Assembly: GCA_001972305.1 (NCBI GenBank)
Contig: BDDD01002363.1
Coordinates: 124,001-188,000, forward strand
Source of the DNA: Cephalotus follicularis
Taxonomy: Eukaryota; Streptophyta; Magnoliopsida; Oxalidales; Cephalotaceae
DNA length: 64,000 nt
Direction of reading: 5' to 3'
Made by a program: the position numbers and the translations under genes. Of the stretch, positions 219 to 63,098 are shown piece after piece. The notes under the pieces were generated by a model. That model had not been told where the DNA came from, did not search any database, and worked only from the letters and a program-made list of their open reading frames with translations. Within the stretch, counting starts at the first letter, position 1. Every line of letters begins with the position of its first letter.

Positions 219-377
219 GTCAACGTGTTGGAGATTGAATAACAATAGCACCAACGCCATGCTCAAGGCATTTACCCCAAAATTGCGCAAATCAAACAGT
301 AGCTTAAAAGTTAACGTGCAATGAGGAAGATGTCAACGCTATGTGTAAGCGTCGACGCCTTGCTTATAAGCGTCGAC
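219..377. promoter_or_regulatory. GTCGAC-palindrome array in insert X (first cluster)
   Basis: GTCGAC or one- to two-base variants begin at 219, 250, 270, 310, 332, 351 and 372. The last four steps are 22, 19 and 21 bp. The best copy is GCGTCGACGCC at 349. Variants such as GTCAAC and GTTAAC fit CpG decay of the same box. A further isolated box lies at about 469. Function is unknown. Confidence 0.6.
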
Positions 378-573
378 ACTTAACTCTCCAGTCTGCTCAA
401 TAACGAGAAGATTCAAGTTAACATGTAGAGCACAAGTGTCCTAAGCATGAACGCCTTGAAGCTACACGTCGACGCCTACGATGCCCCTGGTAGCAAATAT
501 GGAAAGTTTCTCAGATTATAATTTTTCTTAAACCATTTTTTGGTTGAGTTTTATTTCTGTTTTTAATTAGTTG

Positions 574-575
<2 letters not shown>

Positions 576-613
<38 letters not shown>
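576..613. repeat. (TA)n microsatellite
   Basis: Uninterrupted TA dinucleotides run up to 613. The second copy of the downstream block starts in the same TA run immediately after the N gap, so this microsatellite is the likely assembly break point. Confidence 0.95.
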
Positions 614-616
<3 letters not shown>

Positions 617-1983
617 TAGAGGCCGGCCAAAAGTAGCAGTAGCCACCTTCTTGCTATACTTTCTTCTTGTTCTTCAATTTTTAGTTTTTATTACAACGTT
701 AAGTAGTCAACTTTTCAAGGTTTTTTGGGATAGAACAAAACCTAGATTGTATTGATTCAACTCCATCAATAAAAATCCTTGCAGTTTTGATTTGTTCTTC
801 AATTTTCTTCTTTCACGCACACTTTCTATGTTTGATTAAAATCCATAAACATCTTGTCAGTAAATAAGAACGTTGCTGAATAAATGGTTTTCTACTCATA
901 CGGTTTGTCATGCCGAACATATTCTGTATCGACCTAGCTTGTCTACTCATACGATTTGCCGCTGTTGTCGTACTCCGTATAGATCTAGCATGACTACTCA
1001 TACAATTCGTCATCACAATCGCAGTCCTTATCGACCCAACTCCCGTTGGTTATCAAGGTCTGAGCAATCAAGTAAGTGGGTTGTTCAATAGAATCTATGG
1101 TGAGTTTCTATACCCTAAAACCAATTTTCTCTTATATATTGAAGTTAGTTTATTTCTTGCTTTGATTATTCAATAGTTCGCTTGCTTAATTTTCTACATA
1201 ATTAGTTCAATAATTGTACACGTCGACGCCTACCCTGTAAGTGTCGACGCCTTCAGTGATTTTTATGATTTTCGTTGACCCCACACATCGACACTTTCCT
1301 GCTTTAGATTTATTCACGTCGACACCTTGACAAAGCCTCGACCCCTATATTTGCTGGTTTAATAAATTAGTTTATTTTGCATGTTCATGAGTAGATTTTG
1401 ATAATAATCTTACGTTTTGCATACTATGCCTAGGTTGAATAGATTAGAATTAATTTAACTTGATTTCCTAGTGTTCGACCCGTTACTGCACAACCGTGCA
1501 CTTGCGGAATGAATTTAAAACATTCAAAATTCGTGAACATGAATACTAGATGGAAATGATCATGTTTTGAAACTCTGATAGGCCAAAGCCTGTGGGTGTC
1601 AAAACGGATCTATTTCTTTCAGGGTTGTGGGTTTGACTTATACCGGGATCTTATGTTTACCATCATGCCAAAGCAGAGACCATAAGGGCCGGGAGGCCAA
1701 ATTTAGTATCGGATCTTACATAAGCGCTAAAGGTCCTAATGTAATTTGGTATTCCTACCTACCTCTTCAGATATTATGGTTTGCACAACCAAAGTCAGGA
1801 CCATAGTATTGTAGATAGATTTCGATCCCCAATAAGAAGCGAGAGGCTTCTCGAATTCCACATGGGGGGGTGGGATTCAATTAGAATAGTGAAAGGAGCA
1901 ATAATTACAAAAGACCAAGTATTATGGTAATAATATAAATGGAATGATTTGCTAATTAATCTCTCTCTTGTTTCCTCTTTATA
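614..1983 (+). repeat. Duplicated 1.37 kb block, copy 1
   Basis: This block is nearly identical to 2425-3794 at a constant offset of 1811 bp. I noticed only a few substitutions (for example near 870 and 1731) and differences in a G-run near 1863. It ends at the N gap. It contains the 3' part of insert X followed by copia leader. The position beside a gap and the start in a TA run suggest overlapping contig ends rather than a biological tandem duplication. Confidence 0.85.
1222..1342. promoter_or_regulatory. GTCGAC-palindrome array in insert X (second cluster; repeated at 3033-3153)
   Basis: Boxes start at 1222, 1243, 1274, 1287, 1318 and 1337, with steps of 21, 31, 13, 31 and 19 bp. ACGTCGACGCC at 1221 is the best copy. 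The duplicate block repeats the array with the 1811-bp offset. Confidence 0.6.
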
Positions 1984-2417
1984 NNNNNNNNNNNNNNNNN
2001 NNNNNNNNNNNNNNNNNNNNNNNNNNNNNNNNNNNNNNNNNNNNNNNNNNNNNNNNNNNNNNNNNNNNNNNNNNNNNNNNNNNNNNNNNNNNNNNNNNNN
2101 NNNNNNNNNNNNNNNNNNNNNNNNNNNNNNNNNNNNNNNNNNNNNNNNNNNNNNNNNNNNNNNNNNNNNNNNNNNNNNNNNNNNNNNNNNNNNNNNNNNN
2201 NNNNNNNNNNNNNNNNNNNNNNNNNNNNNNNNNNNNNNNNNNNNNNNNNNNNNNNNNNNNNNNNNNNNNNNNNNNNNNNNNNNNNNNNNNNNNNNNNNNN
2301 NNNNNNNNNNNNNNNNNNNNNNNNNNNNNNNNNNNNNNNNNNNNNNNNNNNNNNNNNNNNNNNNNNNNNNNNNNNNNNNNNNNNNNNNNNNNNNNNNNNN
2401 NNNNNNNNNNNNNNNNN
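1984..2417. other. Assembly gap (434 N)
   Basis: A run of N bases. The sequence on its left reappears on its right, so the gap size and even its existence are uncertain. Open reading frames spanning it are meaningless. Confidence 0.99.
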
Positions 2418-2424
2418 TATATAT

Positions 2425-3794
2425 GAGTAGAGGCCGGCCAAAAGTAGCAGTAGCCACCTTCTTGCTATACTTTCTTCTTGTTCTTCAATTTTTAGTTTTT
2501 ATTACAACGTTAAGTAGTCAACTTTTCAAGGTTTTTTGGGATAGAACAAAACCTAGATTGTATTGATTCAACTCCATCAATAAAAATCCTTGCAGTTTTG
2601 ATTTGTTCTTCAATTTTCTTCTTTCACGCACACTTTCTATGTTTGATTAAAATCCATAAACATCTTGTCAGTGAATAAGAACGTTGCTGAATAAATGGTT
2701 TTCTACTCATACGGTTTGTCATGCCGAACATATTCTGTATCGACCTAGCTTGTCTACTCATACGATTTGCCGCTGTTGTCGTACTCCGTATAGATCTAGC
2801 ATGACTACTCATACAATTCGTCATCACAATCGCAGTCCTTATCGACCCAACTCCCGTTGGTTATCAAGGTCTGAGCAATCAAGTAAGTGGGTTGTTCAAT
2901 AGAATCTATGGTGAGTTTCTATACCCTAAAACCAATTTTCTCTTATATATTGAAGTTAGTTTATTTCTTGCTTTGATTATTCAATAGTTCGCTTGCTTAA
3001 TTTTCTACATAATTAGTTCAATAATTGTACACGTCGACGCCTACCCTGTAAGTGTCGACGCCTTCAGTGATTTTTATGATTTTCGTTGACCCCACACATC
3101 GACACTTTCCTGCTTTAGATTTATTCACGTCGACACCTTGACAAAGCCTCGACCCCTATATTTGCTGGTTTAATAAATTAGTTTATTTTGCATGTTCATG
3201 AGTAGATTTTGATAATAATCTTACGTTTTGCATACTATGCCTAGGTTGAATAGATTAGAATTAATTTAACTTGATTTCCTAGTGTTCGACCCGTTACTGC
3301 ACAACCGTGCACTTGCGGAATGAATTTAAAACATTCAAAATTCGTGAACATGAATACTAGATGGAAATGATCATGTTTTGAAACTCTGATAGGCCAAAGC
3401 CTGTGGGTGTCAAAACGGATCTATTTCTTTCAGGGTTGTGGGTTTGACTTATACCGGGATCTTATGTTTACCATCATGCCAAAGCAGAGACCATAAGGGC
3501 CGGGAGGCCAAATTTAGTATCGGATCTTACATAAGCGCTAGAGGTCCTAATGTAATTTGGTATTCCTACCTACCTCTTCAGATATTATGGTTTGCACAAC
3601 CAAAGTCAGGACCATAGTATTGTAGATAGATTTCGATCCCCAATAAGAAGCGAGAGGCTTCTCGAATTCCACAGGGGGGGGGGGGGGGGTACGATTAGAG
3701 GGGGGGGGGATACGATTAGAATAGTGGGAGGAGTCAGAATTACAAAAGACTAAGTATTATGGTAATCATATAAATGGAATGATTTTCTAATTAA
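2425..3794 (+). repeat. Duplicated 1.37 kb block, copy 2
   Basis: This is the second copy of 614-1983. It runs on without a break into the start of the copia A gag at 3852, so this copy is correctly linked to the element. It differs by an expanded G-run (3673-3690, then 3700-3708), the kind of homopolymer difference that keeps assemblers from merging contig ends. Confidence 0.85.
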
Positions 3795-3851
3795 AATCTC
3801 TCTCTTGTTTCCTCTTTTATGGGTTGCTAGTTATCACCATATTATGCTACA

Positions 3852-4750: not shown

Positions 4751-4760
4751 AGATACTTTC

Positions 4761-7845: not shown

Positions 7846-10008
7846 TGTTAGATATAGTGACCCGACAAGCCATTAGATGGGTTGTCATATTATATCTTAC
7901 CATGTATGGAACAATCTTATTCTTATAAATATATGATGCGTGCTAAATTTGTTATGGCTATATCACTTGTATTTTATCACATAATTGAAGTAGTTTATTT
8001 AATTGCCTACTTATGATAGTGATGCCCTGACATAAGGTTGGATGCCTGGCATGGAGGCTGTGAGACTGGTTACCTTACTCCTTATGTCAAACTTGTTCCA
8101 AGTCATAGGTTCACTTTGTGGGCATTAGTGAACCAGATAGACTTGCGCGTATGTTGCCTGCTCATGGAATCGGGGGATGGATTCTCTCACTACCATCTGT
8201 GTCGGACACTAGGGCAAATACGGGGTGCGCGTTGGGAGCATGTACACTAAATAGGACCCGCGTTGGAGACACTGTTTGGATAGTCTCTATTCACGTGTCA
8301 GTAGTGACTCCTACTTGTTGCGGTTGTGTATAAGTGATCATCACTTAGCGAGTTCTTTAACTCGTCTGATCCTTAGACCTGAGCAACTACTCTATATTGT
8401 ATGGAGATGGTTATGCTTTGATCTCCACCTTACCCAGTCCTTACGCAGGGCCGGCAATCGGGTGGTCTTTGGGTATGATCGAATCTATACGAATATAAGT
8501 GAGTGTGCAGTAAGGGATTGTCACACCTGAGCGAAGGTGATCGGCCCTATTATGGTCTGATTATACTTTGGACTTATGAAATCCTTGGCCAAGGTTGAGG
8601 TAGACTTGAAATTAGATTTCCGGAGAGTTTACCAAAGGTCCTAGTAATGATCAGATATTTTAGCCATTGAGGTACTATCTAGGGTTTACACATATCCTTA
8701 CCCTAGACCTCAATCGGGGCCAAGTATGACAAGGGATTATAGTACACGCGAACCGACGACTTAGAAAATCTAGGATTAATGAGGTGTGTAATAAATTATG
8801 GGAAAATTAATTAGATTACTTTTTCCATCTGGATAATATTAGATATTATTCCTAGAGCATTTAAATTGGTCGAGGACCATTTAGAATGGCTAAACCGAAC
8901 CCTACGGGTATTTCGGTAATTTATGAACACCTCTCGTTTTAACCAAGATTTTAAAGGGTCCCTGCCTTATAATGATTTGATCTTTAATATATTGGACATA
9001 TTAAGTCTTGGTGTCAAATATCGGTTGTGTGGATTTTGCATTTCGTGGAAACACATATGCTTGATCTTACTTAACCAATATTTGAAAGGTACATGAGGTC
9101 ACTAAAAGAGTTAGACTCTTTATGCTTGACTAGCCAGAAGGCGTCGATGTCTTTTAGAAATACGTCGATGCTTTTCTCTAATAAAGACATCGATGTACTT
9201 TAGAAAGCATCGATGTGCTTCAGTGCGACATTGCATAGGCGTCGACGTCCTTTGGAAGGCGTCGACCTCTTTGAGCAGAACGTGCAACCTGTGCACGATC
9301 TCACTTTGTGGGTACTACTTCTCTCACAACCTTAGCCGGTTTCTCTTGATTTTACACGTTTTAGAAACGTGGGAATCATGGCCTCGGACTCCCAGGGAGT
9401 GAAGTCCATGATCCTAAGTGAATGGGAGATTGGGAGAGAAAAATAGAGGCTAACATTAAGCATTTCTGCAGAAAATGAAAAAGTAAGGTTGAGTCATTTT
9501 TTCTGGGCAAGAACTCGTTTTTCTCTGTAGATTGTGTGTTCCTTCATCTGATATACACCAAGCAATGGCTTATCTAGGGTGGATTGATTATTGACTTCAT
9601 TGGTCAAAATCAATACACCTTTTCTAAGCTAAGAGAGAGAAAGAGAGAGTTCACGCACTTGAACATTGCTGGTTGGATTGTTTGTTGTTCTTGAGGCTTG
9701 GAGAACATCAAAGGGAATCTACTCAAGCTTGTAGCGGCAAAGAAAGAAGGAGCCTTCACCCACTGGTATAATCTTTGGTCCCTCTTCTTCTTGCCATGCT
9801 TGTGTGTCACCATTGTTTGCAATGGTGACACCAATTCAATTCAGTAGATGCTGTGGTGATCCATGTGATCTCTGGGCGAGTCAATATGGACTAGTTTTGT
9901 TATATAGGGTGTTATTCCGCTGCCATGATTATATGTTTATGTTTTATTCTACACCCTTTAAACCCTTTGTCCATTTTGGCACTGGACTCGGTATATCCTA
10001 TTCCATCA
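7846..10008 (+). repeat. Copia B 5' LTR
   Basis: Starts TGTTAGATATAG and ends TTCCATCA, directly followed by the primer-binding site. It is 986 bp longer than its 3' partner because the partner lacks 7881-8866. The 5' part carries the conserved hairpin GGTTCACT/AGTGAACC (8108-8134) also seen in the LTRs of A, C and D. The palindrome array is at 9141-9266. Confidence 0.95.
9141..9266. promoter_or_regulatory. GTCGAC-palindrome array, copia B 5' LTR
   Basis: Boxes start at 9143, 9164, 9189, 9209, 9241 and 9261, with steps of 21, 25, 20, 32 and 20 bp. The last two (GGCGTCGACGTCC type) are the best preserved; earlier ones are GTCGAT or ATCGAT. The 3' LTR has the same six boxes with identical steps. 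Confidence 0.7.
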
Positions 10009-10009
10009 G

Positions 10010-12680: not shown

Positions 12681-12684
12681 TCCT

Positions 12685-14376: not shown

Positions 14377-15547
14377 ATATAGTGACCCGATAAGCCATTA
14401 GATGGTGGTCGAGGACCATTTAGAATGGCTAAACCGAACCCTAGGGATATTTCGGTAATTTATGAACACCTCTCGTTTTAACCAAGATTTTAAAGGGTCC
14501 CTGCCTTATAATGATTAGATCTTTAATATATTGGACATATTAAGTCTTGGTGTCAAATATCAGTTGTGTGGATTTTGCATTTCGTGGAAACACATATGGT
14601 TGATATTACTTAACCAATATTTGAAAGGTACATGAGATCACTAAAAGAGTTAGACTGTTTATGCTTGACTGGCCAGAAGGTGCTGATGTCTTTTAGAAAG
14701 ACGTCGATGCTTTTCTTTGATAAAGAAGTCGATGTCTTTTAGAAAGCATCGGTGTGCTTTAGTGCCACATTGCATAGGCGTCGACGTCCTTTGGAAGGCG
14801 TCGACGTCTTTGAGCAGAACGTGCAACCTGTGCACGATTTCACTTCGTGGGCACTACTTCTCTCACAACCTTAGCTGGTTTCTCTTGATTTTACACGTTT
14901 TAGAAACGTGGGAATCATGGCTTCGGACTCCCAAGGAGTGAAGGCCATGATCCTAAGTGAATGGGAGATTGGGAGAGAGAAATAGAGGCTAGTATTAAGC
15001 ATTTCTGCAGAAAATGAAAAAGTAAGGTTGAGTCATTTTTGCTGGGCAAGAACTCGTTTTTCTCTGTAGATTGTGTGTTCCTTCATCTGATATACACCAA
15101 GCAAAGGCTTATCTAGGGTGGATTGATTATTGACTTCATTGGTCAAAATCAATACACCTTTTCTAAGCTAAGTGAGAGAAAAAGAGAGTTCAAGCACTTG
15201 AACATTGCTGGTTGGATTGTTTGTTGTTCCTGAGGCTTGGAGAACATCAAAGGGAATCTACTCAAGCTTGTAGCGGCAAAGAAAGAAGGAGCCTTCACCC
15301 ACTGGTATAATCTTTGGTCCCTCTTCTTCTTGCCATGCTTATATGTCACCATTGTTTGCAATGGTGACACCAATTCAATTAAGTAGGTGCTGTGGTGATC
15401 AATGTGATCTGTGGATGAGTCAATATGGACTAGTTTTGTTATATAGGGTGTTATTTCGCTGCCATGATTATATGTTTAAGTTTTATTCTACACCCTTTAC
15501 ACCCTCTGTCCATTTTGGCACCGGACTCGGTATATCCGATTCCATCA
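14371..15547 (+). repeat. Copia B 3' LTR with 986-bp internal deletion
   Basis: Same ends as the 5' LTR. The sequence jumps from the equivalent of 7880 to 8867. The length difference of the LTRs (2163 minus 1177) equals this one deletion. The lost segment includes the conserved hairpin region. The palindrome boxes are kept at 14682, 14703, 14728, 14748, 14780 and 14800. Confidence 0.95.
14680..14806. promoter_or_regulatory. GTCGAC-palindrome array, copia B 3' LTR
   Basis: Six boxes with steps of 21, 25, 20, 32 and 20 bp, the same as the 5' LTR copy. Individual boxes differ between the two LTRs (for example GTCGAT against GCTGAT) while spacing is conserved. Confidence 0.7.
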
Positions 15548-16898: not shown

Positions 16899-17087
16899 GT
16901 GTCGACGCCATGGAGAGCATGCATCGACGCCATGTCTAGTTGAGTCACTGGGCATTAACGTCATGAAGAGCATGCGTTGACACAGTGCAAACCCGTAGCT
17001 CAAATGTCGACGCCATGAAGAGCATGCGTCGACACCATAACAAGATAGAGTCCCTGGGTGTTAACGCTATGGACAACATGCGTTGAT
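16899..17087. promoter_or_regulatory. Tandem array of paired GTCGAC palindromes, copia A LTR
   Basis: Boxes start at 16901, 16923, 16954, 16976, 17006, 17028, 17060 and 17082. Steps are 22, 31, 22, 30, 22, 32 and 22 bp, that is four units of 52-54 bp with two boxes 22 bp apart. Each unit also shares the text GAAGAGCATGCG or close variants. Further degenerate boxes follow to about 17230. The array lies about 220 bp upstream of a TATA box. Confidence 0.75.
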
Positions 17088-17310
17088 GATTTAAAAACAA
17101 GTGACTTATGCGTTGATGCTATGAGATTTATACGTCAACGCTAAGGCAGGAAGAGACTACACGCCTGTTTCATCTTATCATTGGCATTGACATCAAGATA
17201 GGATGAGACGCATGGCATTGACGCCATGAGGGCTGACACATGACATCTCACCTGACTTGAGAGAAGTTGGTGTGACTTTTTGGGATAAAGTGGAGAGAGA
17301 AGTCAAACAC

Positions 17311-19634: not shown

Positions 19635-20025
19635 TGTGAATCGATAAATCAGGGCTAGATTACGGTGTTGGGATGATTGTTAAGGATTGAATCAGACATA
19701 AATAGAAATGTAAGAGAGAATAGAGAGTTTGGGGTTAGATAAAATTTCTCCTCTCCGCAGAATACGAAACCATGAGTTGGGATGTAAGCTTTAAAATGTT
19801 TCTCGATAGATAATCGACCATTGGAGCTACAGCTTCCTCTGGATCGGACATTAAATAGTGGTGGATTGAAACTACAAATTGTTATCAGTCGTTTCTAATG
19901 ATAGGCAAAGGCCACTATGTTGGTGTTTTGCTTACAAGATAATAGTCGACGTCTAAAGCGATTGTCGACTGTACACCTCAAACGTAGAGGTCAGACCTAG
20001 AGCAAAGAAAATAAGGTAGACCTCG

Positions 20026-24726: not shown

Positions 24727-24907
24727 GAGAGGTCCTAATGTAAATTGGTATTCATACCGACCTATTCAGATATTATGGTTTGCACGACCAAAGTCGGGAC
24801 TATCGTATTTTGGATCGATTCCGATCCCCACCAGGAAGCGAGAGGCTTCCCAAATTCCACATGGGGGTGTGTGATATGATTGGATTAGTGGGAGGAGCCA
24901 TAATTAC

Positions 24908-26517
24908 TGTAACACCCCCGATGGTGGGAGCCCTTACAGGTCATAATACCAAACTAAAACATAACAGGATAACTAAGCATGAACTTTACGCAAAACGGAT
25001 GTGGTGGTCTGAAACATAACTTATAACAAAACCGATGTTTAACAAAGTCTAAAAACCTTAACAATACATAAGTGAAAACAAACCATAATCCGATATTCAA
25101 AAATTACGTAAGCAGAAAAATAGTCTGATACTACTCCAAAACATGATTCAACACTACTGTAAACACAATAGACCAACTCCAAGATGGTCCTCTGACAAGT
25201 GGGAAACTCTCATCACATGTTTCCCACATCCTTCTGAAAACCTGCCGCATAGAAACAAAAACGCGGTTGAGCAAACCTCAGTACGGATAAGGAATTAAAA
25301 CAGTAAACGGTAAATAGAATATCTTGAACTTTGGAATTCAGCAAAGTAACATAGTAAATATTCTTGAAATGTAAAACAGAATATTTAAAAACGAGCAGTT
25401 ATAAAATCATCATAACTTTATGAAAACATAACATCATAATCCAAAACTTTATCTGATTTCATAATTCCATAACAGAGAATTCTGACATACATACATATAT
25501 AGGTGCAAGGGGTTCGCGAGGCCCACATGCTCTGACGGAAAAGTCGTGTATGGCACTACACAAACAATCCCAAATACTGAATTTCTGGATTCTGACAATA
25601 ACTAGAGTATACTCATACGCCTCAAAAGGATCCATATCCTATTCTTAGGATACATATTTAAAAGAGACGTCGTAGACCGATCACACCGCCACGATAGGTG
25701 TCATGTCATCCGTGCCAAAGAACATGCCTATGATACCTCATTGGTAGGGTTTTTCTCTGTATGTTATTATGCTAAAACATTGTTTAATTCGAAAACAATT
25801 CTAAAACATACTTATGTAAACTGTCTCCAGACATATCTGAAATTATTTAAAGAGGATCATACTTTCATATCAAAAATCAAAATCCGATATGTATCTGAAG
25901 TATAACATACTCCCTAAAGTGGAAGCCATGTCCAAACAATAACACATTTTCGATAACAGAAAATTAATATCCGATATAACGATAATAAATTCGTTTCAGT
26001 AATATTATTATCAAAATGAGAATATCCAATCAAAATATGAATTTTATTTTGAATAAAACCAGGAGCATAATCATAAAAGCATAAATCCGTTCAAGAACGA
26101 CGTGTCAGTAAAAATTGACTTTATTTAATTTAACCAAAGGAATATCCAAGAATCGAAGAATCCGTACCTTAGCAGATCGAAAATCTAAACAATCTAGAAT
26201 ACCGGACAAAAGCACCCTAGAAGTGTCATACACTCCACCACGAACGATATTAAGACCTAAACATATGAGTCCAAACATCACATAACATAAAAAGTAGCAA
26301 TTATCGAAACTCCCAGACAAAGCGTCAACAGTTTGTTCCTAGGCGTCGACGGTTTCATTTCACAAAAGGACAAAGCATCGAGCAAAGAGTCGACTGACCA
26401 CAGCACAAAACAGTACAAAGCGGCGACGCTTAAAATACAAGCATCAACGGTTTGTGTCGAACACACAGTATCGGTTGCAGAAAACAGTTTCAATTTCATG
26501 AACAACTCCTATTTTTC
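24908..26517 (-). repeat. Gypsy 1 3' LTR (incomplete at N)
   Basis: Matches 31218-32833 of the 5' LTR closely. The part equivalent to 32834-33779 is absent because the assembly joins LTR to pol with one N. The box array keeps 26324 and 26345 (21 bp apart) and following copies. Confidence 0.9.
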
Positions 26518-31212: not shown

Positions 31213-32637
31213 CAATCTGTAACACCCCCAATGGTGGGAGCCCTTATAGGTCATAATACCAAACTAAAACATAACAGGATAACTAAGCATGAACTTTACG
31301 CAAAACGGATGTGCTGGTCTGAAACATAACTTATAACAAAACCGATGTTTAACAAAGTCTAAAAACCTTAACAATACATAAGTGAAAACAAACCATAATC
31401 CGATATTCAAAAATTACGTAAGCAAAAAAATAGTCTAATACTACTCCAAAACATGATTCAACACTACTGTAAACACAATAGACCAACTCCTAGATGGTCC
31501 TCTGACAAGTGGGTAACTCTCATCATATGTTTCCCCCATCCTTCTGAAAACCTGCCGCATAGAAACAAAAACGCGGTTGAGCAAACCTCAGTAAGGAATC
31601 GGAATTAAAATAGTAAACGGTAAACAAAATATCTTGAACTTTGGAATTCAGCAAAGTAACATAATAAATATTCTTGAAATGTAAAACAGACTATTTAAAA
31701 ACGAGCAGTTATAAAATCATCATAACTTTATGAAAACATAACATCATAATCCAAAACTTTATCTAATTTCATAATTCCATAATGGAGAATTCTGACATAC
31801 ATACATATATAGGTGCAAGGGGTTCGCGAGGGCCACATGCTCTGACGGAAAAGTCGTGTATGGCACTACACAAAGAATCCCAAATACTGAATTTCTGAAT
31901 TCTGACAATAACAAGAGTATACTCATACGCCTCAAAAGGATCCATATCTTATTCTCAGGATACATATTTAAAAGAGACGCCGTAGACCGATCACACCGCC
32001 ACGGTATGTGTCATGTCCTCCATGCCAAAGAACATGCCTATGATACCTCATAGGTAGGGTTTTTCTCTGTATGTTATTATGCTAAAACATTGTTTAATTC
32101 GAAAATAATTCTAAAACATACTTATGTAAACTGTCTCTAGACATATCTGAAATTATTTAAAGAGGATCATACTTTCATATCAAAAATCAAAATCAAAATC
32201 CAATCTGTATCTGAAGTATAACATACTCCCTAAAGTGGAAGCCATGTCCAAACAATAACACATTTTTGATAACAGAAAATTAATATCCGACATAAGGATA
32301 ATAAATTCGTTTCAATAATATTATTATCAAAATGAGGATATCCAATCAAAATATTAATTTTATTCCGAATAAAACCAGGAGCATAATCATAAAAGCATAA
32401 ATCCGTTCAAGAACGATGTATCAGTAAAAATTGACTTTATTTAATTTAACCAAAGGAATATCCAAGAATCGAAGAATTCGTACCTTAGCAGGTCGAAAAT
32501 CTAAACAATCTAGAATACCGGACAAAAGCACCCTAGAAGTGTCCTAAACTCCACCACGAATGATATTAAGACCTAAACATATGAGTCCAAACATCACATA
32601 ACATAAAAAGTAGCAATTATCGAAACTGCCAGACAAA

Positions 32638-32764
32638 GCGTCGACAGTTTGTTCCTAGGCGTCGACGGTTTCATTGCACAAAAGGACAAAGCGTCGAGCA
32701 ATGAGTCGACTGACCACAGCACAAAACAGTACAAAGCGGCGACGCTTAAAATACAAGCATCAAC
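32638..32764. promoter_or_regulatory. GTCGAC-palindrome array, gypsy 1 LTR (inner)
   Basis: Boxes start at 32640, 32661, 32693, 32705, 32738 and 32759, with steps of 21, 32, 12, 33 and 21 bp. Arms are mixed (AAAGCGTCGACAGTTT, AGGCGTCGACGGTTT). Confidence 0.7.
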
Positions 32765-33525
32765 GGTTTGTGTCGAACACACAGTATCAGTTGCAGAAAA
32801 CAGTTTCAATTTCATGAACAACTCCTATTTTTCATATACAAAGTTATAGTAGAAATTAACCAACTTAAAAACATGTCATATGAGTCTGTAACTATCAGTA
32901 TGGTGATTATAAATACACAATCATGAAAATAATAAGTTTAACATAACATGTTTATGTCAAAACATGGTTTTTAAAATAATTTACAAAATCATAAACAATA
33001 ATCTGATTTTCTTTGTCCAGAGTATAAAACAATAACATATACGCATCAATAACAGAATTTATTTGATCAGAATATCAGCAAAACAAAATATACACAAAAA
33101 TCTCATTAAGAACAACAGAAAATTAGTTTCAACAAGCCTCTTAAATCATGCTCGAAATTAAATTCTAGTCGATTTCAATACAAATTAATGGGTGGTATAG
33201 AAACTACATAGTACAAACTACAAATTTCGTTTAGAAATTACCTTCAAAAGACGTCAAAAACGATGCAGAAAAAGGCTTGCAAAGTAGCTATTCGTGTTTG
33301 TTAAAGAGAAAAAATGTGCAGATGATTTTCAAAGAATTTTAGTGATCAATTTTAAAACAACAAAAACGTGTAAAATTAATGGTAAAGATCACGCAACTAA
33401 TAAGTTTCCTTTCATGCAGATTCGGTTTCCACAAAGAAGGAAAATCAAATCAACAAAAATGGCAAAAACCCCAATTTTCATTAAACATGTCACCGTCCAA
33501 ACTGGTATGAAAAACCGACTAAAGC

Positions 33526-40332: not shown

Positions 40333-41478
40333 TGTCACGCCCCGTTTTCCCAGAAGGCAACATAAATGGTAAGGCAATCAACACAACATAATTCAGCTTA
40401 TGCGATATTACGTATAAACAAAAACCTTCAGTACCGGAAGCAATAACATGAAGTAAACTAAATTAAAATATGTATCACGCATCCCATACTACATGATACC
40501 CACAGAGTTTATATAAACCCAACACCAGTCGATCGCCCATAAACGGAGCGTGATGATACAGTACGAAATAAAATAAACCCACGTTACAATAATCCAGTTT
40601 ACATAGTCATTGTTCAGTAATCCAGTACCTAAAATAAGAGGAATAACTTAGTCTTCTCCTTAAGTCTCCTTGCGTGCTCCATATCAAAACCCACTTCATC
40701 AATCTGTTACAGTAGGGGGTTAGCCTTTGTCCTCACTCGGCTAAACAGTTCAAGGTCAAAGGTAATGTGTATCATGAATGAATGCATGGTGATGCAATAT
40801 GACATGTAATTTTCACAGTAATTATATCTCAGTATGTACATATAAAACATGTGCATGTTCACAGTACGAGTATAACCTCATAAGGTTATATCAAACACAG
40901 GTAGTAAGTATGTCCCCAAAAGGAACCAAACAAGCAGGTCGTCATAACCGTCGCCACCTCCTGGCCCCAACATCATGCACTCTTAGCCCATCCCCGTTTG
41001 CGAACGGCTTGGAGCAAGTCCTCCTTATGTTGCTTAGCACGGCGGCTAAACCAACAATAGGTTACTTGCACAGCGGCTAAGTAATCAATAGTTTACAAAC
41101 ACAATACAATACAAGTCAAGCAACAAAACATGATTACTTGATCAAAATAAATTTGTTTAAAATATATTACTCCATTATCAGGTTGTTATAAGTTGTAATA
41201 CTTAAAACAATACATTTCTCCGTCTTTGGGAATACTCCCCCAGTCATTTGAAAATATAAGTTTATCTTTGTCAAATATACATTTTCTTACCAAAAATGAT
41301 TGTAATAATCATGCAGGTTTTCCAAGATGGTTAATACATTCAGTAATCAACCAAAATCAATTTACAGTATAGTAGCAGTTCAAATGCAGGGCAAACATAT
41401 GCTCAGAATGCACCTAGGGTTGTTGGTAATTAACCTAGGCCTCTCACCTTCTCTAAAGGTCCAATTTCTGCTGTAACA

Positions 41479-41690
41479 ATCGACTGTTTTATCATAACAG
41501 TCGGCTGGATCCTTGAGTCAGTCGACTTTTCTTCCCCAATAGTCGACTTGTTCATCACGAGAATCAGTAGTCGGCTGTCTTCCTTCGACAGTCGACTGTT
41601 CTGGGCAAAAAAGGCATGCACAGTCGACTGTTCTTACTTGACAGTCGGTTGGATGATTGCGTAGTCAAATGTTTTCCTTAAACAGTCGGC
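41479..41690. promoter_or_regulatory. GTCGAC-palindrome array with 21-bp period, gypsy 2 3' LTR
   Basis: Boxes start at 41479, 41500, 41521, 41542, 41570, 41591, 41623, 41644, 41664 and 41685. Steps are 21, 21, 21, 21, 28, 21, 32, 21, 20 and 21 bp (nine intervals from ten boxes, the first four and the last three at 20-21). The best box is ACAGTCGACTGTT at 41589; many are the variant CAGTCGGCTG. The 5' LTR has the same array from 48727 (48727, 48748, 48769, 48790, 48818, 48839 onward). Confidence 0.8.
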
Positions 41691-42526
41691 TATTCTAGGT
41701 TGGGCAGTACCTGTAATTCACCTCTAAATCCATTCAACAAGCAATTGAAACCTATCCACATATTCAGACCCAAGTATATCACCAGTAGTCATATTCTGGT
41801 CTAAAACACAACTGAATTCATGCATTATTCTCCGTTTTCATTGTAATTCAAATGAAATCCAAACATGGTATTGCATGAAAACCAATCCAAAACTCCATCC
41901 AAAATTCAGTGTGCATGTCAGGTTATTCATTAACAGTAACCACACCATTAATACAGGAATCCACATCCAAACAACTGCACCATTCATTTATAATATCATT
42001 ACTCTTAAACTCAAAATGCATGCATAGAATTCTCTACCATTTCCCCTACCTTTGATTTCAATTTAGAAATCAGAGGTCCATCTCTTTGTGTCTCCTTTCG
42101 AGTATCTTTGAGCCTCCTAGTAGCTCCAAGAACAGTCCAATAGCTCCAATTCGAGATCCAAGCTTAACAATGGAGAATCCTCTCAATTCCCACTATCTTC
42201 ACTCTCAATTTCTCACTATCTTCTCTCTCAATTTCTCTGGTTCATTCTTATCAGATTGCAGGGTGAGAGAGACGAAGGGGAGAGAGCATTTATGCAGTCC
42301 TCTCTTCCTCAACTCGTTTTGCAAGGCACTACGAGCCCTTCTCTCCCATTATCACTTGCATGCACACACACTTGTCACTCTTTCTCTTCCCCTATGTCCT
42401 TGTAGGTCCTGGCGTGGTGGTGCATGCTCAACACGTCTTATTGCATGTGATGGCTTTTGAAGATGCTCTTCCCATGTCAGTTTGCATATGATTTTGCCAT
42501 TTGTCATGAAAACAGAGCATGAATCA

Positions 42527-42673
42527 GTCGGCTGCCCTTCCCTGCCAGTCGGCTGTTCACCTGGCAGTCTGTTGCCAAGTGTCACGACAGTTTGCCAGTC
42601 GGCTGGTTCCTCACGCCAGTTGACTGCCCCACACCTCAGTCCAACAGTCGGCTGGTATATCGCACCAGTCGGC
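42527..42673. promoter_or_regulatory. Second GTCGAC/GTCGGC array, gypsy 2 3' LTR
   Basis: Boxes start at 42527, 42548, 42567, 42598, 42619, 42647 and 42668, with steps of 21, 19, 31, 21, 28 and 21 bp. The box is mainly CAGTCGGCTG. It lies about 170 bp inside the start of the LTR (minus strand). The 5' LTR repeats it at about 49777-49925. Confidence 0.75.
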
Positions 42674-42839
42674 TGTCCAAGCCAAAATTCCCATAATTAT
42701 GCTTAGAATCACACTTCTAAATGCTCTAAGTTAATTTAAATTCAAGATATCAACCAGGATATTCACCTTTTATTAATTCAAGGCAAAAACTACATTGAGG
42801 ATTACAATAATACATGAAATCGAATTTCCGGGCGTTACA

Positions 42840-47544: not shown

Positions 47545-50089
47545 TGTCACGCCCCCGTTTTCCCAGAAGGCAACATAAAAGGTAAGGCAACATAAAAGGT
47601 AAGGCAATCAACACAACATAATTCAGCTTATGCGATATTACGTATAAACAAAAACCTTCAGAAGCGAAAGCAATAACATGAAGTAAGTTGAATTAAAATA
47701 TGTATCACGCATCCCATACTACGTGATACCCACAGAGTTTATATAAAGCCAACACCAGTCGATCGCCCATAAACGGAGCGTGATGATACAGTACGAAATA
47801 AAATAAACCCACGTTACAATAATCCAGTTTACATAGTCATTGTTCAGTAATCCAGTACATAAAATAAGAGAAATAACTTAGTCTTCTCCTTAAGTCTCCT
47901 TGCGTGCTCCATATCAAAACCCACTCCATCAATCTGTTACAGTAGGGGGTTAGCCTTTGCCCTCACTCGGCTAAGTAGAAAAGTTTATGTATACAGTTCA
48001 AGGTTAAAGGTAATGCGTATCATGAATGAATGCATAATGATGCAGTATGACATGTAATTTTTACAGTAATTATATCTCCGTATGTACATATAAAACATAT
48101 GCACGTTCACAGTAAGAGTATAACCTCATAAGGTTATATCAAACACAGGTAGTAAGTATGTCCCCAAAAGGAACCAGACAAGCAGGTTGCCATAACCGTC
48201 GCCACCTCCTGGCCCCAACGTCATGCACTCTTACCCCATCCACGTTTGCGAATGGCTTGGAGCAAGTCCTCCGTATGTTGCTTAGCACGGCGGATAAACC
48301 AACAGCAGGTTAGTAGCACAGTGGCTAATTAATCAACAGTTTACAAACACAATACAATACAAGTCAAGAAACAAAATATGATTACTTGATCAAAATATAT
48401 TTGTTTAAAATATATTACTCCATTATCAGGTTGTTATAAGTTGTAATACTTAAAACCATACATTTCTCCGTCTTTGGGAATACTCCCCCAGTCATTTGAA
48501 AATATAAGTTTATATATGTCAAATATAAATTTTCTTACCAAAAATGATTATAATAATCATGCAAGTTTTCCAGGATGGTTAATACATTCAGTAATCAACC
48601 AAACTCAATTTACAGTACAGTAGCAATTCAAATGCAGGGCAAACATATGCTCAGAATGCACCTAGGGTTGTTGATAATTGACCTAGGCCTATCACCTTCT
48701 CTAAAGGTCCAATTTCTGCTGTAACAGCCGGCTGTTTTCCCATAACAGTCGGCTGGATCCTTGAGTCAGTTGACTGTTCTTCCCCAATAGTCGACTTGTT
48801 CATCACGAGAATCAGTAGTCGGCTGTCTTCCTTCGATAGTAGACTGTTCTGGGCAAAAAACGCATGCACAGTCGACTGTTCTTACATGACAGTCAGCTGG
48901 ATGATTGCGTAGTCGACTATTTTACTTAAACAGTCGGATGTTCTGGTCTGGACAGTACCAGTAATTCACCTCTAAATCCATTCAATGAGCAATTGAAACC
49001 TATCCACGCGTATTCAGACCCCAGTAGATAACCAGTAGTCATATTCTGGTCTAAAACACAACTCAATTCATGCATTATTCTCCGTTTTCATTGTAATTCA
49101 AATGAAATTCAAACATGGTATTGCATGAAAACCAATCCAAAACTCCATCCAAAATTCAGTGTGCATGTCAGGTTATTCATTAGCAGTAACCACAACATTG
49201 ATACAAGAATCCACAGCCAAACAACTTCACCATTCATTTATAATATCATTACTCTTAAACTCAAAATGCATGCATAGAATTCTCCACCATTTCCCCTACA
49301 TTTGATTTCAAGTTAGAAATCGGAAGTCCACCTCTTTGTGTCTCCTTTCCAGTATCTTTGAGCCTCCCAGTAGCTCCAAGAATAGTCCAATAGCTCCAAT
49401 CCGAGCTCCAAGCTTAATAATGGAGAATCCTCTCAATTCTCATTATCTTCACTCTCAATTTCTCACTATCTTCTTTCTCAATTTCTCGGGTTCGTTCTTA
49501 TCATATTGCAGGGTGAGAGAGATGAAGGGGAGAGAGCATTTGTGAAGTCCTCTCTTCCTCAAGTAGTTTTGCATGGCACTAAGGGCCCTTCTCTCCCATT
49601 ATCACCTGCATGCACGCACACTTGTCACTCTTTCTCTTCCCCTCTGTCCTTGCAGGTCCTGGCGTGGTGGTGCATGCTCAACACGTCTTATTGCATGTGA
49701 TGGCTTTTGAAGATGCTCTTCCCATGTCAGTTTGTATGTGATTTCGCCATTTGTCACAAAAACAGAGCATGAACCGGTCGGTTGCCCTTCTCTGGCGGTC
49801 GGCTGTTCACCTGGCAGTCTGTTGCCAAGTGTCACGACAGTTGGCCAGTCGGCTGGTTCCTCACGCCAGTCGACTGCCCCACACCTCAGCCCAACAGTCG
49901 GCTGGTATATCGCACCAGTCGGCTGTCCAAGCCAAAATTCCCATAATTATGCTTAGAATCACACTTCTAAATGCTCTAAGTTAATTTAAATTCAAGATAT
50001 CAACCAGGATATTCACCTTTTATTAATTCAAGGTAAAAACTACATCGAGGATTACAATAATACATGAAATCAAATTTCTGGGCGTTACA
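47545..50089 (-). repeat. Gypsy 2 5' LTR
   Basis: 2545 bp, close partner of 40333-42839. Differences are mostly single bases and small indels, including a 13-bp repeated TAAGGCAACATAAAAGG near 47581. Arrays at 48727-48950 and 49777-49925 repeat those of the other LTR. Confidence 0.94.
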
Positions 50090-50865: not shown

Positions 50866-51437
50866 TGAAAAACCTCTATATGGCAACTTTTTATATTGAT
50901 AAATTGTTTGCAGAATTAACAAAATCTGAACTATGAAACTAAACAAACAATTAGAAGAACAATTATACAAACAATAGAAAATAAAGAGAGAAGGGATAGA
51001 GAGTGTGCAAACGATTTTATAGTGGTTCAGAAAAATCCGTGCCTACGTCCACTTTCTCAAGATCCTCTTGAGATTCCACTAGAGATCACTAGCAACCTTT
51101 GATTTCGGCTTGCGGGTGCAAATCAAAGAAAACCACCTTACACTTGATTTTGGGTTCCGGGTGCAAATCAACTAAACACATTATAAGGGTTCACTCCCCT
51201 CAATATTCTCACTAAGGGTTTTAACACCCTTTTTACAAAAGACGGATTTGTAAAGATGGTTTGTGCTTACAAAGTAATCTCTCAAAGGTTGGATATGAAA
51301 GTGTAGGATTACAAGTCTTGAGCTTTGATGGATTTGACAATTGAAACTTTTCTCTTGCTAAGTTCTTCTCCTTTGATATGAAAGTTGTGCTCTTGAAATG
51401 GTTTATGCAAAAGTCACTTTGATCTTGATTCTTGACT

Positions 51438-51447
51438 TGTATTTATA
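51438..51447 (-). promoter_or_regulatory. Probable TATA box of element F LTR
   Basis: GCTATAAATAC on the minus strand, about 120 bp downstream of the palindrome array. The other LTR has the same site near 54759-54769. Confidence 0.65.
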
Positions 51448-51565
51448 GCATCCTTTTGATTCTGGCCATTGGTGAAAGTGTTATAGCCATTGGTTGTTGT
51501 CCTGGAAGTTGTTACTTCAAAGTCGGCTCTTTAAAACGCGATCAGTAATTTTCCAGCTGCGCAAA

Positions 51566-51820
51566 GCGTCGACTATGTCGAATAAAGCATCGACGCTTAT
51601 GTTACCGTTATGCGTTGAATTTGAAATTTCTCGTTTAGTCCACTGGCGCTTTAATCTGGGAGTCGACTGTTTGCATAAAGCGCTGGCACTTTCCATTGAG
51701 CGACACCACTTTAAGTTCCTCAATTGATTTTGCAAGTCACTGTTTTTAACCGCAGATACAAGCTCCTTAAGCGTTGACGCCTTGGTCCAAACCGCTGACG
51801 CTTTCTTTGAGACCGTCGGC
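51566..51820. promoter_or_regulatory. GTCGAC-palindrome array, element F 3' LTR
   Basis: Boxes at 51568, 51589, 51614, 51662, 51682, 51773, 51794 and 51815. Close steps are 21, 25, 20, 21 and 21 bp. Arms are of the AAGC..GCTT type (for example AAAGCATCGACGCTTA). The 5' LTR has a matching array at about 54886-55130, missing one short segment. Confidence 0.7.
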
Positions 51821-51937
51821 GCTTTGATCAATTTCTGCATTCTCCTATTTATTTTATCTTTTACTTGGACAGAAAGTAACATTGTTAAATGCAAATATGT
51901 AATCATTAAAACATAGGATTGAGACTAAAAGTCAACA

Positions 51938-54219: not shown

Positions 54220-54221
54220 AT

Positions 54222-55236
54222 TAAAAAACCTCTATACGGCAACTTTTTATATTGATAATTTTTTTGCAGAATTAACAAAATATGAACTATGAAACTAAAC
54301 AAACAATAGAAAATAAAGAGAGAAGGGATAGAGAGTGTGTAAACGGTTTTATAGTGGTTCGGCAAAATCCGTGCCTACGTCCACTTTCTCAAGATCCCCT
54401 TGAGATTCCACTAGAGATCACTAGCAACCTTTGATTTCAGGTGGCGGGTGTAAATCAAAGGAAACCACCATACACTTGATTTTGAGTTCCGGGTGCAAAT
54501 CAACTAAACACCTTACAAGGGTTCACTCCCCTCAATATTCTCACTAAGGGTTTTAACAACCTTTTTACAAAGACATATTTGTAAAGATGGTTTGTGTTTA
54601 CAAAGTAACCTCTCAAAGGTTGGATATGAATGTGTAGGATTGCAAGTCTTGAGCTTTGATGGATTTGAATTCTCTTGCTAAGTTCTTCTTCTTTGATATG
54701 AAAGTTGACCTCTTGAAATGGTTTATGCAAAAGTCACTTTGATCTTGATTCTTTACTTGTATTTATAGCATTCTTTTGATTCTAGCCATTGCTGAAAGTG
54801 TTATAGCCGTTGCTTGTTGTCTTGGAAGTTGTTTCTTCAAAATCGGCTCTTTAAAACGCGATCAGTAATTTTCCAGGTGCACAAAGCGTCGACACTTATG
54901 TCACCATTATGCGTTGAATTTGAAATTTGTCGTTTAGTCCAATGGCGCTTTAATCTGGGAGTTGACTGTTTGCATAAAGCGCTGGCGCTTTCCATTGAGC
55001 ATTGTCGCTTTGAGTTCCTCAATTGATTTTGCAAGTCACTGTTTTTAACCGCAGATACAAGCTCCTTAAGCGTTGATGCCTTGGTCCAAACCGCTGACGC
55101 TTTCTTTGAGACCGTCGGCGCTTTGATCAATTTCTACACTTTCATATTTTGTTTATCTTTTACCTGCACAGAAAGTAACAATGTTAAATGCAAATATGTA
55201 ATCATTAAAACTTAGGATTGAGACTAAAAGTCAACA
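54222..55236 (-). repeat. Element F 5' LTR
   Basis: 1015 bp; partner of 50866-51937. Its inner terminal CA has changed to TA. The palindrome array and TATA box are kept. Confidence 0.92.
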
Positions 55237-55241
55237 TATAG

Positions 55242-55787: not shown

Positions 55788-55800
55788 ATATCCCACTTGG

Positions 55801-58230: not shown

Positions 58231-58716
58231 ATATGACTTTCGTAGTCATTTATTTGTAATTTCTTGATTAATAGCTGGTGCTATTGTTTGATTAGTATTT
58301 ATGACTTAAAATCCATTATCTAGTTAATCAGTGCCGACTGATAGACAACCAGAAAATAATAGCCACTATCCATATGTAATAAACAAAGGGGCTCCAAGCT
58401 CCAAAAAAATATACATTATATTTGATAATTAAAGCCTTGAACAAAAGTTCTCAACAATATTTGCAAAGGTTTAGTGTATATACAAAAGCCATATTGCGTT
58501 ATATATTTATATGTATAGATAAATCAAAATATTCCTACAACATTAAAGTAGATCCCCGATCTTCATGTAGTAGGTCCATTGCATCCTCAGCTCCCAGCTG
58601 CCTAGCCCCTCTTAGCTCTTGCAAAGAGTTACAAATGTTAGTCTCACAACCTGAGTCCTATACCCAAGTTGAACTTACATTGTAATCTAGATGTAATATG
58701 AAAATACGACGGTACC

Positions 58717-60051: not shown

Positions 60052-61242
60052 TGTAATAACCGCAATTTCAATTAATGTATATTGCCAAAATTATTTTAAT
60101 AAAATATACATTTTAATTGAGATTATTTGTCCAATTATCATAACAATTGTGATTAGAGAATGCTTGGGTTGGTTTGAAATACAAATTGGCAAACAAATTT
60201 AAGGAACCCTAAAATCAGCTCAAACAACCGACTGTCACAGGGTAACAGTCGACTGTCTGATGCGTGGTGTGACAGTGTACTGCCTGTTAAAGACAGTCGA
60301 CTGGAACGGTACAGAACAGGCGTCTGTGCATGCATGAGAGACAAGCTGTGGCATTGCATGATGGACAGGTGTTAGGCGAAGTCACCAGCTACCAGAGCAA
60401 GCAAAAAAGAGTGCTTTGCAAGTGCTCAGCAGACCTGCAACCTGCAAAATAGAAATGGGAAGAAAGAAAAGTGAGAAAGAAGTGAACATGTGAGAGAGAG
60501 AAGGAGGAAATGTTGAAGGGAAGTAATGACACGAATTGATCCTTATATCAGCTGTACATGAGCTGACTATGTGTTAGAAAACACTGAGGATAGAGGAGAG
60601 CTTGCTGGAGAATTGTTGGAGCTTGCATGTTGAAGGATTAGAGCTCAAAGAAGGAGTTAAAGCTTTGATTCCTGGTAAGCTTCCAATTTGGGATTATGGT
60701 TGAAGTTGTAGGCTAACAGTAGTACATATGGTTACATGTATACTGTCCATAATGTCAAATTTATAAATGGTAATAAAAGTGGTCAAGAATATGAATGTGA
60801 AGCTTAGAGAATTGTTGATAACTCTAATTCGGAGTATAGTTGTTGTTATAGTTGTCAAAAAAAGGTATATATATACATCTTCTGTCCACACGATGAAGGT
60901 TAATGAACCTGGAATTGAAATAGAATTGCCAAAGGGTTCTAAGAGAAGTTGTAAAAGGGTAAGTTTGAGGCTTAATGAATTATTGATGACCTACTATTGG
61001 AGTAGTAATTGTAACCATATAATTAGTTAAACTTACTGATTACGTGACTGAACCTTCGAGCATGCATTGTTATAGATAAATTCAGCTGAGGCTGGAAGGT
61101 TAAGTTGGTGAAAGACCTTTGGCCATTAAAGACAGAAATCAATACAAATTGATTTCGGGATAGCGTTTAAGGTAGGGCTAATGACATGTTTTGGAAGATA
61201 TATTATGCATATCATGTATGGATAATTTTCTGTTTGATTGCA
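60052..61242 (+). repeat. Gypsy-type LTR fragment
   Basis: Starts TGTAATAACCGC like the gypsy LTRs here. Then comes a box group at 60227, 60248, 60275 and 60296 (steps 21, 27, 21) with arms ACAGTCGACTGT, in the same relative place as the first array of gypsy 2. It appears cut at 61243, where another LTR start follows. No coding frame is seen. Confidence 0.5.
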
Positions 61243-62286
61243 TGTAATACCCGTTTTTTCGTATAAAATTTATTTTATTTTATTTTATTTGGACCCCTTT
61301 TTAATTAATATTTGTGGCTGCCTATTTGTTTTAGATATGAATAACCCAAATTTTTTATTTGTTTGGGCTAATTTAATTTCAAATATTGACCAATAAACAT
61401 CTTTGGTAAATGGTTAAAGAAAATATTTTTTTTAAAGCCATTTATCACTTTTATTTGGAAAAGCCAAATTATGTATTTTAAGAAGAAAATCTTTTAAAAA
61501 GGGAATTGTCCATTTTGTTGTAAAAACCAAATTATGCAAAATCAATAAAAAAGGAAATGGTTTATTATTCGTTAATTTTGCCTTTTTGCCGCCACCCGCT
61601 CTCCCAAAATCTCTCCCTTCCCAAATGGTTTCTCTCCCAATCTCTCACTCTCTCTCCCGTATCAACACTATCTCTCACTTACTCTCTCCCACATTAACAC
61701 TCTCACTTATGCATTCTGCCGAAATCTCTCCCATGCAATTATCTATTTTCCTTTTTTTGATTCTTCACGCCTTTTGCCTTATTCTTGGCCACCTTCTTTC
61801 CTTTATTTCCATCTCTTTCATTCGCCTCTCTCTTTCATTCGTCTGGACAGCCTCTCTCTCTCACTCTTCACGCCTCCATTGTTGCACAGCTTGGAGGAAG
61901 CTTCTTGCTCAGTCGCCACAGTACATCACTTCAGGTTCGGTTTCTTGCTTCCTTGTGGTGATCCGATTCGTTTGGTATAAACTGTATATAGATATGCACG
62001 CATTAATCTCCTTCTCTTTATGTAATCCTGCACCACTGTTACTAGTTCTTTAGCAGTCATGGTGTTGCGCTAGGGTCATGTTCGGGTTGGATATCAACCC
62101 GGTCACATGTGTAGGGATTGATCCCATCCCTCTCCTTAACACAACCACCGTTGCATATGCCTGTTTTGCTATTTTTCTTGATGTTTCCATCGGTGTCATG
62201 AAAGGGATTGGTTTAACTGTTGTGTTGACACCGTTGTTGCCATAAATTATCACCTGGGTTCATGCTCGGCACTAGGATCGTCCTGC

Positions 62287-62760
62287 ATGTGTGTGTGTGT
62301 TGGTTGTGTGTATGTGCTGTGAAAACAGAGTGTATGTCATGCATGTGTTGTGTGCGTATTGCATGCGGTGTGTGTGTGCTGTGCATGTGGTGTGTGTGTG
62401 TTGCATGAAAAATGTGCATGTGTGCAGAGTGTGTGTTGCATGTAATATGTGCATGTGTGCAGAGTGGGTTTTACATGTATTATGTTGTGTGTGTGCTGTG
62501 TATGTACATGTGGTGTGTGTGTGTTGCATGAAAAATGTGCAGGTGTGCAGTGTGTGCTTGTGTTGTGTGCAGCCGAAGTGATATGCATGCAGTAAATGTT
62601 TTGTGTGTGCAGTGCGGTTGTGTACAACCTTGGTGTGAAAGTTTGCATGCGGTGTGTGTGCAGTGAGTCGTGTGTGTTGTGAAGGCAGTGTACATATTAA
62701 GAAAGTGTGATGTGTGCGTGAGTTAAGTGTAGACAGTGTGTGTGTGTTGTGCATGCCATG
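62287..62760. repeat. TG-rich imperfect tandem repeat
   Basis: TGTGTGTG runs alternate with TGCATG segments. A unit like GTTGCATGAAAAATGTGCA recurs near 62400 and 62522. Long ORFs on both strands are by-products (Thr/His- and Val/Cys-rich). Confidence 0.9.
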
Positions 62761-62858
62761 GGTGCTGTGTTAGAATGGTGTGCTCACAAATGCATTGTCT
62801 TATTTCTCACTTCTGCAATCTGCGTGTAGCACTGTAAACACACCTAAACTCATTTAAA

Positions 62859-63098
62859 GCGCCGACGCTCTTCCCCTTTGTTTCATCAAAGCGTCAACGC
62901 CTTCCCACAATTGTGCATAATCCTATTTTGTTTATGTAAAGCGTCGACGCCATCCTATTTTGTTCTGTAATGCGCCGACGCTCTGTTCTCAAACTTTGAG
63001 TTTTTAAAATGTTTAAGCGTCGCCTGTGTCCTGATAAATGTCGAAGCTTATGCTAGAAGAGTCGACAGTTTCGGCTTTGTTTTAGCTAAAGCGCTGAC
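62859..63098. promoter_or_regulatory. GTCGAC-palindrome array in terminal gypsy LTR
   Basis: Boxes at 62861, 62893, 62943, 62974, 63019, 63040, 63061 and 63093; steps 32, 50, 31, 45, 21, 21 and 32 bp. Best copy AAAGCGTCGACGCC at 62938. Confidence 0.68.

Follow-up and report, generated by a model that had tools for sequence, protein, structure and literature searches.

Why should the long terminal repeats (LTRs) of retrotransposon families that share no detectable homology carry the same six-base box, GTCGAC, at regular intervals? The question is raised by a 64-kb stretch of the genome of Cephalotus follicularis, a pitcher plant of the order Oxalidales (C2363:124001-188000, within an assembly of 1.577 Gb; here called the window), for which an earlier note had described such boxes in a number of otherwise distinct elements. 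The boxes proved to be real. The window contains 49 copies of GTCGAC against 5.44 expected (sd 2.27; maximum of 12 in 100 shuffles), and among the 64 palindromic hexamers GTCGAC is the most enriched in the window at 9.0-fold, the runner-up reaching 2.75-fold. Twenty stretches of 10 kb from other contigs contained 105 copies where 15.2 were expected, and their spacing peaked at 21 bp. Across the genome, the exact 21-bp pair GTCGAC-N15-GTCGAC was found at no fewer than 105,145 places compared with at least 1,224 for the reversed control, all genome-wide pattern counts given here being lower bounds. As argued below, we consider it moderately probable from the sequence data that the boxes form enhancer arrays in the unique 3' (U3) region of the LTRs for a host factor of the AP2/ERF family, of DREB/CBF-like type, and that these arrays were acquired by several LTR families.

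The combined sample used for further characterization comprised 318,214 bases, consisting of the window, the 20 stretches, which lie at set contig numbers, and stretches of contig C1; the latter were picked for holding or adjoining arrays, so that the combined sample is not all random. Overlapping stretches L002, L004 and L007 were excluded and L003 and L005 trimmed, whilst L011 consists entirely of N and L020 includes 4,281 N. Copies and alignments in this material are not independent, and chance figures are therefore indicative only. Among 169 dereplicated pairs of boxes lying 6–130 bp apart, 25 were separated by 19–23 bp and 23 by 40–44 bp, the uniform expectation being 6.8 for each interval. 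The earlier note had proposed two spacings, 20–22 and 31–33 bp, and only the shorter is general: 31–33 bp accounted for two of the 169 pairs (4.1 expected) and does not represent a general second period.

The arms flanking the boxes had been read as differing by family with self-complementarity kept in each, but the data instead show two main classes, CA..TG and GC..GC, plus changed forms. Arms were paired at the first flanking position in 85 of 132 non-redundant boxes compared with 51.8 after permutation, an excess that arises because the two classes are mixed; inside the GC class there was no arm covariation, with 25 of 47 paired and 26.5 expected by our own arithmetic. The box is mostly a polar site rather than a true palindrome, the commoner class being CAG[T/C]CGACTG. 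With exact CA..TG arms the core was GTCGAC in 71 cases, GCCGAC (read in either direction) in 54 and ACCGAC in three, with CpG decay products of GTCGAC in five and of GCCGAC in nine. The two classes had different variants, GCCGAC in the CA..TG class and ATCGAC in the GC class. The classes also differ in their neighbour gaps. In the CA..TG class 78 of 129 gaps of up to 80 bp measured 20–22 bp; in the GC class 23 of 43 measured 18–22 bp and six fell at 31–32 bp, so that the longer spacing has support in this class only. Lesser groups of CA..TG gaps were also observed at 26–29 bp (13), 41–43 bp (13) and 48–53 bp (11), and the recurrent gaps of 26–29 and 48–53 bp do not correspond to whole helical turns.

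Polar sites within an array, which may number up to ten, mostly run head to tail. Orientation was uniform in 18 of the 19 arrays having two or more polar sites, where 7.2 would be expected by chance, and polar pairs in the sample lying within 60 bp of each other comprised 35 in the same direction, none convergent and three divergent. In the second gypsy element of the window (gypsy 2) polar RYCGAC sites (R, purine; Y, pyrimidine) read with transcription in eight of eight cases in the 5' LTR and 10 of 11 in the 3' LTR. Genome-wide, GCCGAC pairs 21 bp apart were head-to-tail in at least 35,594 places (17,577 + 18,017) and convergent in at least 682, whereas random orientation predicts a ratio of two to one; the reversed pattern for these pairs (14,865 and 14,942), overlapping as it does the same box, is not a clean control. 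A symmetric dimer site with independent halves was also considered and rejected: GCCGGC with exact CA..TG arms was observed three times against 7.0 expected, which is not decisive, and the orientation bias speaks against it.

The boxes change within RYCGAC more often than through CpG decay, unlike the neutral changes between LTR pairs, and in the GC class this is only weakly so. Examination of 2,145 positions at array offsets yielded one-mismatch variants consisting of GCCGAC (42), ATCGAC (21), CpG decay (14), GGCGAC (7) and eight others, and after dereplication 22 variants were RYCGAC, six CpG decay and two other. The neutral spectrum was taken from ten of 15 repeat pairs; L016 c and d, L017 e, L020 g and L032 k were set aside, and not all of the 15 need be LTR pairs. 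In the ten, the per-site frequency of CpG transitions was 5.6 times that of other transitions, and neutral decay of GTCGAC is therefore predicted to give about 2.8 CpG decays per non-CpG transition, mostly GTTGAC or GTCAAC. Exact GTCGAC was absent from both copies in six of the 15 pairs (L016 c, L017 e, L020 g, L030 i, L030 j and L032 k), of which, again, some may not be LTRs. For box conservation we relied on copy alignments built with the boxes masked. In copies at least 92% identical outside the boxes, 57 of 69 boxes were identical, two were other RYCGAC forms, five showed CpG decay and five other changes; in copies less than 92% identical the corresponding figures for 61 boxes were 22, 19, none and 20. 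Below 80% identity, boxes were unchanged in 10 of 25 cases compared with 57 of 392 control CpG hexamers. Unmasked alignments of 60–78% identity gave differences at 72 of 849 box CpGs and 540 of 2,026 other CpGs, although the boxes themselves may seed those alignments.

The elements carrying the boxes belong to both superfamilies. Pfam matches in the window identified a copia reverse transcriptase (RVT_2) and gypsy gag, protease and reverse transcriptase (RVT_1), whilst element F has a single open reading frame (ORF) of at least 150 amino acids, without a Pfam match; boxes are present in the LTRs of copia and gypsy elements and of element F, as the earlier note had it. LTR pairs measure 1,142 bp in copia B, 1.6 kb in gypsy 1, 2.5 kb in gypsy 2 and 1.0–1.1 kb in element F. 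Strand was taken from the primer-binding site (PBS) or from ORFs, and a low PBS score leaves it uncertain, for example in L024h, L013b and L017f from the sample. The box-bearing features of the window are as follows (boxes are GTCGAC unless another sequence is given).

1222..1323, unstranded: element X, LTR copy 1; boxes at 1222, 1243 and 1318.
3033..3134, unstranded: element X, LTR copy 2; boxes at 3033, 3054 and 3129.
8867..10008, plus strand: copia B 5' LTR; TG..CA ends followed by the PBS TGGTATCAGAG; exact boxes at 9241 and 9261, polar GTCGAT at LTR positions 277 and 298.
14406..15547, plus strand: copia B 3' LTR, 95.4% identical to the 5' LTR; boxes at 14780 and 14800.
16901..17033, unstranded: region A; GTCGAC at 16901, 17006 and 17028, ATCGAC at 16923.
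19945..19969, unstranded: region G; boxes at 19945 and 19964, 19 bp apart.
24907..26517, minus strand: gypsy 1 3' LTR, 96.0% identical to the 5' LTR; boxes at 26345 and 26389.
31217..32833, minus strand: gypsy 1 5' LTR; minus-strand PBS; boxes at 32640, 32661 and 32705 (LTR positions 189, 168 and 124).
40354..42839, minus strand: gypsy 2 3' LTR, 93.6% identical to the 5' LTR; arrays at LTR positions 167–313 and 1150–1361.
47584..50089, minus strand: gypsy 2 5' LTR; orientation set by the minus-strand gag-pol ORF, the PBS score being uninformative; arrays at LTR positions 167–313 and 1173–1342.
50868..51937, minus strand: element F 3' LTR, 88.8% identical to the 5' LTR; boxes at 51568 and 51662, ATCGAC at 51589.
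54224..55236, minus strand: element F 5' LTR; minus-strand PBS; box at 54888, polar GCCGAC at LTR position 118.
60227..60301, unstranded: 60.2 kb region, CA..TG class; ACCGAC at 60227, GTCGAC at 60248 and 60296.
62943..63066, unstranded: 63 kb region; boxes at 62943 and 63061, with GTCGAA, a non-fitting form, at 63040.

Twenty box coordinates had been named beforehand, of which 12 are exact GTCGAC and five other forms of RYCGAC (16923, 20837, 23297, 51589 and 60227), the remaining three being neither (20816, GTCAAC; 23318, GTCGCT; 63040, GTCGAA). When the window was divided into compartments drawn by ourselves, boxes were densest in identified LTRs (26 of 49, 1.71 per kb over 15,209 bp) and sparse in element interiors (six, 0.20 per kb over 29,319 bp). 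The proposed check against intergenic DNA could be approximated by the remainder of the window, which includes LTR fragments and gave an intermediate 0.87 per kb (17 boxes over 19,472 bp). The two GTCGAC copies at 6536 and 13012 code for the V-D in the GVDY motif of the copia reverse transcriptase and are therefore coincidental rather than regulatory boxes. With the boxes masked, blastn at E<=1e-3 found no mutual similarity among the LTRs of X, B, gypsy 1, gypsy 2 and F and regions A, G and 62.7–63.2 kb, so that the description of these families as unrelated holds at this level.

Some further observations were made on this material. Window positions 607–1980 and 2418–3817 form a 97% direct repeat flanking a run of N (1984–2417) which takes in the start of the copia interior; instead of two LTRs, this repeat may represent overlapping contigs joined during scaffolding. 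Spacers between the region A boxes (16901–17090) contain GCATGC/CATGC motifs, GCATGC being 2.6-fold enriched in the window. L013:1-2925 is a tandem array with a period of approximately 162 bp, whose copies are about 80–90% identical and contain no GTCGAC.

Where strand could be assigned from PBS or ORFs (B, gypsy 1, gypsy 2, F and L009a), GTCGAC boxes precede the LTR end by approximately 650 bp to 2.3 kb. A simple string match located one TATA-like string 119–162 bp from the LTR end in gypsy 1, gypsy 2, F and L009a. The position of the boxes fits U3, with likely start sites being guessed from the TATA-like strings only.

The motif itself is not undescribed, as had been suggested. Comparison with plant factor tables, a check that had been proposed at the outset, showed that in the accessible entries of two published motif tables GTCGAC is listed as CRTDREHVCBF2, the preferred site of the barley AP2 transcriptional activator HvCBF2, RYCGAC as CBFHV, the site for barley CBF1 and CBF2, and RCCGAC, in one motif table, as the core dehydration-responsive motif. 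The C-repeat/dehydration-responsive element (CRT/DRE) core, taken as RCCGAC or as RYCGAC with GTCGAC preferred, is matched by the core and variants of the CA..TG class, whose C form GCCGAC fits RCCGAC, and is matched weakly by the GC class. An AP2/ERF factor of DREB/CBF-like type is considered most likely because the GTCGAC, RYCGAC and RCCGAC entries name CBF/DRE sites. The boxes would thus be putative sites for such a factor reading the core RYCGAC, set out in U3 well upstream of the likely core promoter, mostly 20–22 bp or two helical turns apart and in one orientation. Such rows most likely act as an upstream enhancer which would turn on retrotransposon transcription when the factor is present, the cue perhaps being cold, drought or developmental. 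Rows may have been gained in several unrelated families by local duplication and point mutation, or by exchange, and the selective reason that we infer is that row-bearing families would be transcribed and copied more.

Several observations weigh against this interpretation. The DREB flank consensus of Arabidopsis is given as A/GCCGACNT in the accessible part of PMC4287451, and the DREB1A flank of this form is not matched here: the base two after CGAC was G in 13, C in six, T in four and A in one of 24 dereplicated polar sites, the post-core flank being mostly TG or GC and not NT. TATA-like strings occur elsewhere in the same LTRs also, and copia B has none. In copies 80–92% identical, boxes were unchanged in 12 of 36 cases, no higher a share than that of control CpG hexamers (168 of 448), and 20 of the 61 boxes in diverged copies fit neither RYCGAC nor CpG decay. 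The GC class provides weak evidence for RYCGAC because its ATCGAC can derive from decay of a flanking CpG in GCGTCGACGC, and among sites with loose GC-type arms decayed CpG cores (35) are as numerous as intact ones (34). The uniform orientation may result from tandem duplication, spacers within arrays being slightly more alike than those between them, and we know of no need for uniform orientation in DRE sites. Groups from F and from gypsy 2 also fell into one single-linkage cluster before masking.

Other ways in which the arrays might work were weighed against the same data. Enhancer arrays could operate in the same manner but respond to another cue through a non-DREB/CBF factor, either an unknown one or two, one per arm class; this is the less likely reading, although the two arm classes with their different variants and the divergence from the Arabidopsis flank would suit it, since main-class variants follow RYCGAC and the GTCGAC and RYCGAC entries name CBF proteins. 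A reading in which a host repressor or chromatin factor binds the arrays, or in which they mark sites of insertion, with silencing or targeting allowing families to accumulate, is improbable. A host silencing factor would likewise predict a motif common to many families, yet elements should lose repressor sites, whereas arrays reach ten sites and changes in diverged copies fall largely within RYCGAC (19 of 39, with no CpG decay). Pairing of the boxes in RNA, for example in dimerisation or packaging of genomic RNA, was rejected as the main reading and is very unlikely indeed. The retroviral dimer-initiation site is a short palindrome in an LTR element, the T-form boxes are perfect palindromes and the arms look complementary overall, but unlike the retroviral palindrome the boxes are polar, repeated and probably in U3, far from the 5' leader, and the GC class lacks covariation. 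The common GCCGAC form breaks self-complementarity, and in gypsy 2 the sense strand form is GCCGAC, which would give an A-C mismatch with GTCGAC, where GTCGGC would give G-U.

A separate question, compatible with any of these ways of working, is whether the box-bearing region is common to the families by plain descent or by recombinational passage of one array; we regard either as improbable. The 87 box groups of the combined sample fell into 33 neighbourhood clusters by single linkage, the biggest of which contained 38 groups and, prior to masking, joined gypsy 2, F and the 60.2 kb region. Relatedness persisted with boxes masked between the LTRs of F and L009a, and between the 60.0–60.5 kb region and L024h, whilst B with L009a and X with L013b matched only with boxes unmasked. 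The absence of mutual similarity among the masked LTRs and regions listed above argues against common descent, as does the presence of a group of two or more boxes in 20 of the 33 clusters. Of the two origins posed at the outset, repeated capture of a host factor is on this comparison the leading one because these LTRs and regions show no mutual similarity after masking, and exchange of a short module is possible: positions 267–356 of the B LTR show short similarity to positions 580–627 and 822–902 of the L009a LTR which is gone once boxes are masked, and which might reflect such an exchange. Mean spacer identity was 0.354 inside arrays and 0.279 between arrays, with six of 154 values above 0.72. 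Since spacers are nearly unrelated even within arrays, arrays grew either via old duplications that preserved mainly the boxes or via separate gains.

LTRs with DRE sites are already known, and what appears to be new in Cephalotus is the phased polar arrays, their number and their spread. The accessible portions of the published accounts provide the following comparisons. The cold-inducible MCIRE element of alfalfa (PMC5059998) likewise has an LTR with a putative cold-responsive CRT/DRE core, CCGAC, but is presented there as a single element, whereas Cephalotus has head-to-tail arrays two helical turns apart in several unrelated families of both superfamilies. Rider of tomato (PMC6762207), whose LTR promoter carries dehydration-responsive elements and responds to drought and abscisic acid, resembles it in having DRE-type LTR sites; Rider is one family with several different elements and a tested response, the Cephalotus arrays being known from sequence alone. 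In maize, DREB/CBF sites are enriched in transposable element families near stress-responsive genes and tied to the response to cold, heat and salt (PMC4287451); the consensus there is A/GCCGACNT and, unlike in Cephalotus, the part available describes no spaced polar arrays. Recurrent gain of a host-factor response through a cluster of LTR sites, as proposed here, is reported for the heat-responsive COPIA elements (ONSEN) of Brassicaceae (PMC5059998), although these have heat-responsive elements and are COPIA only, compared with CRT/DRE-like sites in copia and gypsy here. A machine-learning study also ties DREB1 sites to plant LTRs. Among the matches listed in a literature search, as far as their accessible text goes, none described LTRs holding GTCGAC arrays, phased one-way rows of this site across unrelated families in such number, or any LTR motifs from Cephalotus. 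An auxin-response reading, based on the motif TGTCGG, was dropped as the CA..TG class shows AGTCGG on that strand, and a comparison with WRKY50 did not help, the accessible text concerning WT-boxes.

The same site and spacing recur in huge number in families without detectable homology, which makes repeated capture of one host factor by competing elements testable. We tentatively suggest, as a possibility short of probable, that one host factor or two sister factors have been captured across copia, gypsy and non-autonomous LTR families, each building its own phased one-way array, in which case more than 100,000 sites would constitute a genome-wide regulon switchable by a single cue. If the sites are bound, they would provide a vast reservoir of extra sites for one plant factor, which could change the control of neighbouring genes or titrate the factor away.

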